Shown here piece after piece: positions 41,292 to 46,457 of a stretch of 64,000 bases of DNA. The stretch is from the NCBI GenBank assembly GCA_022826665.1, contig JAJDUK010000063.1, forward strand, positions 186,001 through 250,000, written 5' to 3'. This stretch comes from Alphaproteobacteria bacterium. Lineage in GTDB: Bacteria > Pseudomonadota > Alphaproteobacteria > UBA828. Position 1 is the first letter of the stretch; every line of letters begins with the position of its first letter. A program made the translations under genes and the position numbers. The notes below the pieces were generated by a model. The model was not told where the DNA came from. It did no database searches and saw only the letters and a program-made list of their open reading frames with translations.

Positions 41292-42050
41292 TCACGGGTA
41301 GAATATGTCCCTCATTATGGCCGGTACTCGACCCGCATTTAAACTACTCTTAAGTAAGACTTCTTCCCAAGATTCCAAATAGTCTTCGAAAGTTTCGTCG
41401 TCATGAGAATTCCATAAGTTTAGATGACCAATTTCCCTCCATAATACGGAGTCCTTCAGAAAGCAATCCAATAGAGACAGAGACACAATCGCATTGAGGT
41501 CGCGAATAGTACTGTTTTTCTCCATAGCCGGAATATTTGAGGCCAGCCACTCGTCCAATTCTCCCCGAGGCGGAACATCGTATTTGGCCGCGAAATTATC
41601 TACATAAGTAGCATAACTGGATGCGTATTGCACCGCGCCTATTATTGTTGGCGGTGGATTAACTCTCCAGACAACGGATAATCTTCTCAGTACGTACAGT
41701 GACGCCATCTCGCAAATGCTTTCTTCGAACCACTTATGCTTATGGCCTCTACAACGATCAAAATTAGCTAAGACATGACAAAGCTCATGGGAAAATTGAT
41801 AAACACATTTTGACCATAAAGTGACTTTAGCATTGATTCGAATTTCATAGGGACGATAATCATAGAGAGATCGTGGATGATCAGACCACCAAGAAACACT
41901 AACAGGTGCATCAGGAAGTTTATCGAACGCTCTCGTAAGTACAACAAACGCAGCTTCCAAAATGTCACATACCGCAACATTCAAGTACAATTCTTGGGTT
42001 CCCTGATCGTCATTACAGCTTTCCGTGCGGACGTTTAGTGGCGATGTCAT
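41292..42050 (-). CDS. AT-rich lone gene: putative HExxH zinc metallopeptidase
   Basis: I do not recognise a named family for this 252-residue protein. It contains H88-E-L-C-H92 in a hydrophobic helix context (YQFSHELCHVLANF) followed by WFEESICEMASLY (E109/E110, E114), the spacing expected of gluzincin-type metallopeptidases with a downstream Glu ligand. No signal peptide or membrane segment is seen. Composition is strikingly different from the window: rows 41341-41400 and 41581-41640 have only 22 and 27 G+C of 60. Codon use is correspondingly unlike the neighbours. It lies next to the 3' end of tRNA-Arg, a classic insertion site, so horizontal acquisition is likely. No partner gene is visible. 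Confidence 0.7.
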   Translation of the reverse strand: MTSPLNVRTESCNDDQGTQELYLNVAVCDILEAAFVVLTRAFDKLPDAPVSVSWWSDHPRSLYDYRPYEIRINAKVTLWSKCVYQFSHELCHVLANFDRCRGHKHKWFEESICEMASLYVLRRLSVVWRVNPPPTIIGAVQYASSYATYVDNFAAKYDVPPRGELDEWLASNIPAMEKNSTIRDLNAIVSLSLLDCFLKDSVLWREIGHLNLWNSHDDETFEDYLESWEEVLLKSSLNAGRVPAIMRDIFYP

Positions 42051-42188: not shown

Positions 42189-42265
<77 letters not shown>

Positions 42266-42313: not shown

Positions 42314-42560
42314 TTTATTCATTTCCCTCGACGGCGGGCGCTCGCACTTTTTTCGTTTCCCTCAACGGCGGGCGCTCGCACTTTTTCGTTTCCCTCAACG
42401 GCGGGCGCTCACTCCGTTCGCTTGCCTACGCGCCTTCGGCGCGGCGCGCGGTCGCGCGCTCCAGACTGCTCCGCAGCCTGGCTCCACACATGGCAAACAC
42501 TCTGTCTGTTTCCGCGCGGCGCATTCGCGCCGTCCGGGCTGCTTCGCAGCCCGGTCCCAT
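42314..42560. repeat. Tandem-unit and hairpin repeat, copy A
   Basis: Begins TTTATTCATTTCCCTC and contains three tandem units of 34, 33 and 32 bases starting at 42322, 42356 and 42389, each reading TTTCCCTC(G/A)ACGGCGGGCG. These are followed by CGCGCCTTCGGCGCG (self-complementary) and two hairpins of the type CCGGGCTGCTTCGCAGCCCG, the first degenerate. The same modules recur at 43472. This 380-base stretch after tRNA-Arg has no credible gene of its own. Confidence 0.8.
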
Positions 42561-42596
42561 CAGGGCAAACGCCTCGTTGGCTGCCGGGGGGAGAAA

Positions 42597-42617
42597 CCGG
42601 ACCATGGTGCGGTGCAC
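42597..42617. repeat. 21-bp shared motif, copy 1
   Basis: CCGGACCATGGTGCG, then G, then TGCAC. Identical except for one base (G versus C at position 16) to 46223-46243. Both copies lie on the 5' side of a minus-strand tRNA gene. Function unknown. Confidence 0.6.
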
Positions 42618-42647
42618 AGTGTGGGCGGCGCGGGGCAGCATCGCTGG

Positions 42648-43460
42648 ATGAGCCAGAAACCATCCCGCGAGCACAGCGACGCCATGCAGAACGAAACTCC
42701 CCGGAAATCCCCCGAGAGCACCCCCAAGAGCACAACGGCCGGGACGTTCGGCCGCTCCTCCATCGACCGCCTGCCGGCCAAGCTCCGCGAGGCCGTGGAC
42801 GCGGCCATCGCGGACGGCGCCACCATCGACGAGATCACCGCCCGCATCCGGGCCGAGGGCGAGACATGCTCGCGCTCGGCCGTCGGCCGCTACGCCAAGA
42901 ACGAGCGCGACCTGATCCGCCAGCAGCAGGAGACCGACCGCACCATCAAGGCGTGGATGGACGCGCTGGGCGAGCGCCCGGAGGGCCAGGCGGGACTCAT
43001 CCTGATCGAGACCCTGCGGACCATGGCGCTCTCCACCATGGCTCGTCTCAGCGCGCGGGAAGAGCCCGTGTCGACGGAGGAGCTCGCCCGCCTCGCCCTC
43101 ACCCTCAAGCGCATCGAAGGCACCGACAAGCTGCGCCTCGATCGGGAGCAGGCGGCAAAGAAGGCGGCGCAGGGCGCCGGCCAGCCCAAGCGCCAGGGCG
43201 GGCTCTCGCCGGAGGCGGTGGCCATCATCCGTGCGGAGGTGGAGGGCAGGCCCCCGCCACCCCCGCCTGCTCCCCGCACCGTCACGTCGGTGCCAGTGGA
43301 CCCGTGGAACCCTGCCGAAGCCCGCCTATACCCATCAATCCCAGCTGATCCCGGCGAATCCCACTTGAGCCCGGATCATCGCTATGAATCCTGGACGGAA
43401 ATCGCGCCGCGGGTGTTTCGCACCAGCCCCACATCGATCCTGTCCCTCGGGCCGGAGTGA
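42648..43460 (+). CDS. Orphan phage Mu gp27-like protein (DUF3486)
   Basis: The protein has 270 residues from ATG 42648 (ATG 42684 is an alternative; neither has a strong ribosome-binding site). Residues about 35-170 match the DUF3486 / Mu gp27 pattern: GRSSIDRLPAKLREAVDAAI, GATIDEITARIRAEG, CSRSAVGRYAKNERDL, ALGERPEGQAGLILIETLRTMAL. Gp27 lies in the head-gene module of Mu-like phages beside the large terminase. Here no other phage gene is present. The C-terminal 70 residues are Pro-rich and unlike phage homologues. It is bracketed by the repeat copies A and B. Confidence 0.72.
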   Translation: MSQKPSREHSDAMQNETPRKSPESTPKSTTAGTFGRSSIDRLPAKLREAVDAAIADGATIDEITARIRAEGETCSRSAVGRYAKNERDLIRQQQETDRTIKAWMDALGERPEGQAGLILIETLRTMALSTMARLSAREEPVSTEELARLALTLKRIEGTDKLRLDREQAAKKAAQGAGQPKRQGGLSPEAVAIIRAEVEGRPPPPPPAPRTVTSVPVDPWNPAEARLYPSIPADPGESHLSPDHRYESWTEIAPRVFRTSPTSILSLGPE

Positions 43461-43471
43461 GGCGCGGGCGC

Positions 43472-43620
43472 TTTATTCATTTCCCTCAGTCGCCGGGCGC
43501 GAACTCATTCCATTTCCCTCAACGGCGGGCGCTCGTTCCACTCGCTTGGCTACGCGCCTTCGGCGCGGTGCGCAGTCGCGCGCTCCGGGCTGCTTCGCAG
43601 CCCGGTCCCTATCGCGACAA
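43472..43620. repeat. Tandem-unit and hairpin repeat, copy B
   Basis: Starts TTTATTCATTTCCCTC like copy A. Contains two units beginning at 43480 and 43513, then the shared block GCGCCTTCGGCGCGGTGCGC and the hairpin CCGGGCTGCTTCGCAGCCCG. Direct orientation relative to copy A, about 1.16 kb away, and only 11 bases after the gp27-like stop. The rest of the gap up to 43733 shows no gene. Confidence 0.8.
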
Positions 43621-43733
43621 ACTCAGTGGCCGCTGCCGCGCGCGGAGGGGCTTCGCCCGTAAGGCTTCGCTCTTGTCGGCGGGGCGGGGTCCGCTATTCT
43701 GCCGCCGCTTGAAGGCAAGGGAGGGATAGAGCT

Positions 43734-45793: not shown

Positions 45794-45895
45794 GCGAATT
45801 CCAACCTTACTGGATCACGATTCGAACGTTCCCACCTCCCCCTGTCCCCCTCCCCCGAAGGCGGAGGGAGAACGCAGGTGGCACCGCCAAATGCT

Positions 45896-45923
45896 CCCTC
45901 TCCGCCCCTGGGGGCGGAGAGGG
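45896..45923. repeat. 13-bp-stem palindromic element
   Basis: CCCTCTCCGCCCC and GGGGCGGAGAGGG form a perfect stem around TG, followed by TCGGGGTGAGG. Palindromes of this kind are common dispersed REP-like elements in GC-rich Proteobacteria. It is about 100 bases after glnT and has no T-run. The 247-base gap between glnT and tRNA-Leu holds nothing else I can name. Confidence 0.65.
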
Positions 45924-46040
45924 TCGGGGTGAGGTGGGGGATTCTCGGGCCGCACCGCGTGCGAATTGAGGGATTGTGCGGCAACCGGGTGCCATCCCGG
46001 CCGTAGGATTGCGGCCTAGCGCCGGCCGCTGTGAGGCGGC

Positions 46041-46125: not shown

Positions 46126-46457
46126 ACATGCGCCAGCCGCAGGACTCCTCATAGCGCGAGAGCGCGCGCAAGGCCACCTCGCCTGAGGGCGCTCGGGACA
46201 GCGACCGGGCACGCCCAACGCTCCGGACCATGGTGCGCTGCACGGCGCGCGGCGGGCGCGCCACAATGGCGCCATGATGAGCGGGCGCAGGCGGGCCGTA
46301 GCGGGTGTGGACAGGACGACAGGACACCTTCTTGGCGAGCGGTTGTCGCCGGGAATCCCGCATGATCCCGGCTCGTCCCGCATGAATTTTATGTTTGCCT
46401 GTCCCACCGGGGAACGGGCGAGGCCGCGCGGGACGCGACGCTGCCGAGAAACGCGGG
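46126..46457. other. Intergenic region between tRNA-Leu and ppx
   Basis: 332 bases with no supported gene. It holds the second copy of the 21-bp motif (46223-46243) and a stretch around 46350-46395 with repeated TCCCGCATGA. No terminator or promoter is convincing by eye. Confidence 0.5.
46223..46243. repeat. 21-bp shared motif, copy 2
   Basis: CCGGACCATGGTGCG, then C, then TGCAC; one base different from 42597-42617. About 100 bases 5' of the minus-strand tRNA-Leu. Confidence 0.6.

Follow-up and report, generated by a model that had tools for sequence, protein, structure and literature searches.

Candidate phage-inducible mobile elements built around a Mu gp27-like small terminase gene in an alphaproteobacterial genus

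A gene resembling the small terminase (TerS) gene gp27 of phage Mu was found within a short, sharply bordered element in the 64 000 nt stretch of alphaproteobacterial DNA that was analysed here (the window). We see an about even chance that this element belongs to a genus-specific family of short mobile TerS elements that are derived from phages and inducible by phages, and whose terminase subunit would divert the packaging of Mu-like phages. The TerS elements are ~0.8–0.9 kb in size and contain a single ORF. The full-length copy in the window lies on the forward strand at positions 42597–43465, and its sharp borders of homology are common to copies at unrelated sites.

The terminase gene of the window element (42648–43460, forward strand) encodes a protein of 270 amino acids. 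A preliminary description of this DNA had recognized a DUF3486 (Mu gp27) homologue, and profile searches agreed: the ORF matched PF11985 (Phage_Mu_Gp27) at 6e-24, with 85.7 bits against a cut-off of 28 and coverage of profile positions 1–171 of 173, and it matched phrog_426 (terminase small subunit) at 9e-30. The protein is like the gp27 small terminase of Mu-like phages (PF11985, phrog_426) in its core, at approximately residues 36–202. Unlike gp27, the window gene is an orphan, lacking TerL, portal or capsid genes in its vicinity, and its C-terminus runs into a repeat array. The preliminary description had also reported that the gene stands alone, and our search for TerL or portal homologues found none elsewhere in the window and none at 19 other element loci. 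Among the element and prophage copies, the terS gene was located beside terL in a packaging operon only in the prophage of contig C24, described below. No recombinase domain was visible in the gp27-like gene. The predicted structure of the protein was confident for the helix-turn-helix (HTH) domain only, with AlphaFold pLDDT values of <50 at residues 224–270, and a structure search with the model returned no PDB match, the best viral match being a DUF3486 protein (E 3e-5).

The 5′ end of the element has the appearance of a phage promoter. It opens with a 16 bp palindrome, CCGGACCATGGTGCGG (42597–42612, forward strand), which is restricted to the genus and is a putative site for a Mor/C-type activator. 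The palindrome CCGSACCATGGTSCGG, with one mismatch or fewer, occurs 55 times in the genome that carries the window (G000) and 11–48 times in seven congeners, compared with 0–2 times per genome among the searched genomes from elsewhere in the family, order and class. Taken over 39 sites, the module consists of the dyad at positions 1–16, TGCAC at 17–21, CANNAT at 40–45 and ATG at 52–54; the position frequencies over these sites identify the window hexamer CAGCAT (42636–42641, forward strand; module positions 40–45) as −10-like. The ATG at module position 52 is kept in 33 of the 39 family members, and for this reason we preferred the start codon at 42648 over a GTG at 42612. A transcription start at approximately position 52 would put the centre of the dyad at −43.5. 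The Pm promoter of Mu has a 16 bp element centred at −43.5 (PMC4390567). Given this presumed start, the module shows the layout of a Mor/C-dependent promoter, namely a 16 bp dyad near −43.5 and a −10 hexamer, with no −35 box. The middle and late promoters of Mu that depend on Mor and C likewise have a 16 bp dyad in place of the −35 box (PMC4390567); unlike them, the module described here is scattered over the host chromosome in tens of copies, where it leads mobile units. We infer from these sequence features that the palindrome is bound by a Mor/C-type late activator of Mu-like phages.

A single palindrome-bearing prophage was seen. It is a partial Mu-like prophage followed by host sequence (L235:836–17680, contig C24 of G000), with genes for a MuA-type transposase, a DnaA-C-like protein, Gam, a late activator, lysis, TerS, TerL, portal and F. 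The palindrome TCGGACCATGGTCCGA is positioned 13 bp behind the late-activator gene, has CACAAT at positions 40–45, and is followed by the lysis–terS–terL operon. The late activator matched phrog_836 (2e-14), and its Pfam Mor score of 20.6 bits was under the cut-off of 24.9. The layout of the element module is identical to that of this prophage module, which leads us to propose that the elements may be activated by a late activator of the prophage type. No comparable 10 bp array was detected in the C24 prophage on its partial contig. A search of the relatives for Mor (PF08765) gave one short broken match, in G004, that was not accompanied by the palindrome, and a search of viral contigs for the element, for relatives of the prophage activator and for the prophage TerS yielded no match.

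The 3′ part of the window element carries an array of phased 10 bp repeats of ATCCC type (43292–43382, forward strand), with a lag-10 autocorrelation of 0.57 against a mean of 0.41 and a maximum of 0.53 in shuffled sequences. At roughly half of the 39 sites, the best lag-10 match exceeded every shuffle. The reading frame of window-type elements continues through the array, and this accounts for the Pro-rich C-terminus; what the preliminary description had called a non-phage C-terminus is, thus, the translated repeat array and no new domain. The repeat cores, for example ATCCC, GGGCC, GTGCC and GTCTC, are fairly uniform inside one element and different between elements. Residue 80, in the recognition helix of the HTH, is either G or one of A, V and N, and this division agreed with the core class, defined by C or G as the third core base, in 21 of 21 elements. 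On a tree that excluded the HTH region, the residue and the core class appear to change jointly at three or more points. Residue 80 was picked after looking, and in a control over 165 other alignment columns four separated the core classes equally well, so the co-variation supports, rather than establishes, a model in which the protein recognizes its own array. The recognition of DNA by HTH rings of TerS has been modelled (PMC7672466; PMC4737164), and in light of these models recognition of the element's own array is plausible. Two TerS elements of G006 (L097 and L098, on C100 and C52) are identical in their C-terminal part but not in the HTH half, a pattern suggestive of recombination.

The borders of the element were defined by comparison of copies. 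In blastn alignments of the C74a, C54 and G001 C359 copies, homology starts at 42597 and ends at 43464–43466. The 3′ end of the window-type element, CTCGGGCCGGAGTGAGGCGC (43446–43465, forward strand), recurs with small variations in C74a, C54, G005 C110 and G003 C57. Proof of the borders comes from near-identical pairs that diverge there: the C88 copy and that at the end of C100 part at the palindrome's CCG. For G007 C200 and G007 C24, the left point of divergence is CCGG and the right one lies immediately past GGCCGCAT, so that this pair fixes the 3′ border as well as the 5′ border. The near identity of the C88 and C100 copies, combined with their sharp end, implies recent movement. Several copies at contig ends are broken at the same internal base, as recent multicopy repeats would be expected to assemble. 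Neither terminal inverted repeats nor a target-site duplication was found at the clean borders of G007 C200 and C24 or in the filled and empty pairs, and no transposase or integrase was found for the element, which has no integrase inside it. The elements display the dispersed, sharp-ended copies and empty sites of insertion sequences and MITEs, and not the integrase and att site of phage-inducible chromosomal islands (PICIs). A tyrosine integrase gene directly adjoins a divergent TerS element at L067:9301–10497 (G000 C73), which we took to be incidental.

Comparison of the window locus among congeners, a check for empty sites that the preliminary description had proposed, revealed a polymorphic site between the tRNA-Arg gene and an SDR gene. 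The element is present in G003 with the same right junction as in the window and absent from four other genomes: G001 has repeats only, G004 and G006 have spacers of 152–184 nt, and G007 has a different family member without gp27. A prophage remnant at this site was considered and rejected, as all that related species show at this position is a short spacer or other repeats.

Most palindromes head gene-less mini-elements made up of the promoter module and an array, and the many gene-less derivatives keep both ends. Nearly all of 20 palindrome loci sampled in G006 had the promoter module and no gp27 match, and most had arrays. One mini-element lies in the window itself (46223–46384, forward strand); its palindrome has one mismatch, and the module and a short ATCCC array were identified by sequence, with a lag-10 value that was not above the shuffles. 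This mini-element is present in G003, and in G004, G006 and G007 none was seen in the interval with these flanks; conversely, the G000 mini-elements at C14, C39 and C11 are absent from G003. At a locus which we take to be hslU from the C-terminus of its product, a full element in G007 (C200) and a mini-element in G000 (C17) both lie 27–28 nt from the hslU stop codon, suggesting that mini-elements arise by internal deletion. A conserved A-rich tail with a G-run (ATAAAAAACGAGGGGGGTGTGCCACTT) recurs after the array of several mini-elements of G006 (L258–L264 and L274).

Seven genes of G000 matched PF11985 over the cut-off, comprising six orphans and the copy in the C24 prophage. The six orphans sit among ordinary host genes, which in the case of C15 are presumably ispH-like and hopanoid-type genes, as judged by reading the sequence. 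Using tblastn, we detected 11 gp27 matches in G000 and 2–15 in six of the seven congeners, some of them fragments, and none in G004 or in the genomes tested from other genera of the same family. Some of these matches are truncated or carry internal TAA, TAG or TGA stop codons. Intact or partial related gp27 elements are found in seven of the eight genus members, never adjoining other phage structural genes. Distant gp27 matches in G056 and G030 adjoin terL and were thus regarded as ordinary phage genes. The named relatives were metagenome bins that carry the labels Rhodospirillales, Alphaproteobacteria or Defluviicoccus; one more match fell in a bin of the same p16x34 series whose label is Vicinamibacteria, probably through an error of binning. 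We found no description of TerS-only or DUF3486 mobile elements in the literature searched.

The preliminary description had placed the gene between two direct copies of a repeat, beside a tRNA-Arg gene, and this arrangement is correct: TTTATTCATTTCCCTC occurs exactly at 42314 and 43472 (0.02 expected by chance), and tRNA-Arg(ccg) is a neighbour at 42189–42265 on the reverse strand. It had further suggested a cassette bounded by the repeats and moved by recombination between them, which we now consider extremely unlikely. The two copies (42314–42586, outside the element, and 43472–43642, both on the forward strand) belong to a repeat dispersed in at least 47 copies. A 287 bp piece of it had 47 matches in its own genome, mostly without gp27, and the occurrence of many copies unrelated to any gene had been named in advance as grounds for refuting the cassette. 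Most gp27 copies are without the repeat; among those closest to that of the window, it was found only at the window and C74b, being absent from C74a, C54, C88 and the end of C100. In favour of recombination, the repeats do flank the window copy, and they immediately precede several other elements at a fixed spacing of 9 or 12 nt, as read by eye (window, C74b, C75, C106, C87, C73 and G001 C59); some composite units therefore exist. The phage origin, mobility and possibly satellite-like nature that had been suggested for the gene all stand, and it is the use of the repeats to define the cassette that falls. Integration targeted to the tRNA gene was also rejected, given that other copies are away from tRNAs and that the element has no integrase. 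Adjoining the tRNA-Arg gene is a 252-amino-acid gene (41292–42050, reverse strand) with an HELCH motif, whose SprT-like match is weak (E 0.08); its GC content of 0.41–0.47, against about 0.70, gives it the look of a horizontally acquired gene. A very abundant interspersed repeat of the CTCCTCCCC...GGGGAGGAG type, with many matches in all eight genus genomes, is present at 45831–45939, and repeats of this type are also found directly upstream of several TerS elements.

The same observations could be read in other ways. The host may keep the elements as a phage-triggered decoy or defence, in which a TerS variant poisons the packaging of Mu-like phages and spread is secondary. This account is improbable, yet not negligible: it draws on the phage-type promoter, on the orthologous copies retained across species and on purifying selection on the gene, whereas the sharp-ended multicopy dispersal and the many gene-less mini-elements look selfish, and PADLOC gave no relevant defence family. 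We give similarly low credence to the elements being decaying debris, a fragment of a Mu-like operon (promoter and terS) that was spread by unrelated transposition and is now functionless. The copies with stops or truncations, the many mini-elements without the gene and the failure to find a mobilizing enzyme would all suit such decay. Against it stand the recent movement implied by the C88 and C100 copies, the identity of 0.81–1.0 between orthologous promoter modules, slightly above that of the adjacent segment, and the dN/dS values between gp27 copies, which are mostly 0.26–0.62 (157–165 codons) and fit moderate purifying selection. Two dN/dS values were higher, 0.68 and 0.90, the latter belonging to a probable recombinant pair (G6C52/G6C100b).

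A chromosomal regulon, in which the gp27-like HTH protein is itself a regulator that binds the dispersed palindrome, seems very unlikely. The HTH domain is modelled with high confidence and the palindrome is upstream of the gp27-like gene and many other loci, as such a regulator would have it; however, gene-less mini-elements rather than diverse target genes lie downstream of the other palindromes, the palindrome is also found behind a phage late-activator gene, and the close matches of the protein are terminase small subunits.

The reading that we favour, a family of phage-inducible mobile TerS elements, can be extended to a mechanism. The source of the family would be a Mu-like phage, and an element would stay silent until such a phage turns lytic and its Mor/C-type late activator acts on the 5′ palindrome. 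The TerS made at that point could bind the array of phased repeats in the element that encodes it and engage the large terminase of the phage, so that packaging would turn to the element and the host DNA next to it. The element would in this way spread as a parasite, and interference with the phage could follow as a by-product. We put forward only tentatively the full form of this idea, a sub-kilobase multicopy parasite, consisting solely of a phage-activated promoter, TerS and a phased packaging or recognition array, that spreads through the genus by redirecting Mu-like packaging and whose mini-elements are mobilized in trans.

PICIs, including the SaPIs, are triggered by phages and carry a TerS of their own that is able to redirect the packaging of the helper; they are single-copy islands of ~10–15 kb with an integrase, regulators and replication genes. 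The TerS elements share with them the possession of a small terminase and, perhaps, phage-triggered expression, and differ in being <1 kb, multicopy and limited to one gene, with no integrase. As short, intergenic, multicopy units with gene-less derivatives that keep both ends, the elements also resemble MITEs and REPIN/RAYT-type repeats, from which they are set apart by the lack of visible terminal inverted repeats or target duplications and by a gene that encodes a terminase subunit instead of a transposase. The Rhodobacter gene transfer agent (GTA), likewise an alphaproteobacterial system, has a small terminase of phage origin that acts in the packaging of host DNA (PMC6854486); unlike the GTA, the TerS elements are dispersed multicopy units without a structural gene cluster.

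If our interpretation is correct, the TerS elements would be by far the smallest satellite-like phage elements known to us, a terminase subunit standing in for the customary gene island. The code by which TerS finds its DNA would become testable through natural variants, in which the helix-turn-helix and the core of the 10 bp repeat appear to change together. Sites of the phage late-activator type can, moreover, be strewn by the dozen across a host chromosome.
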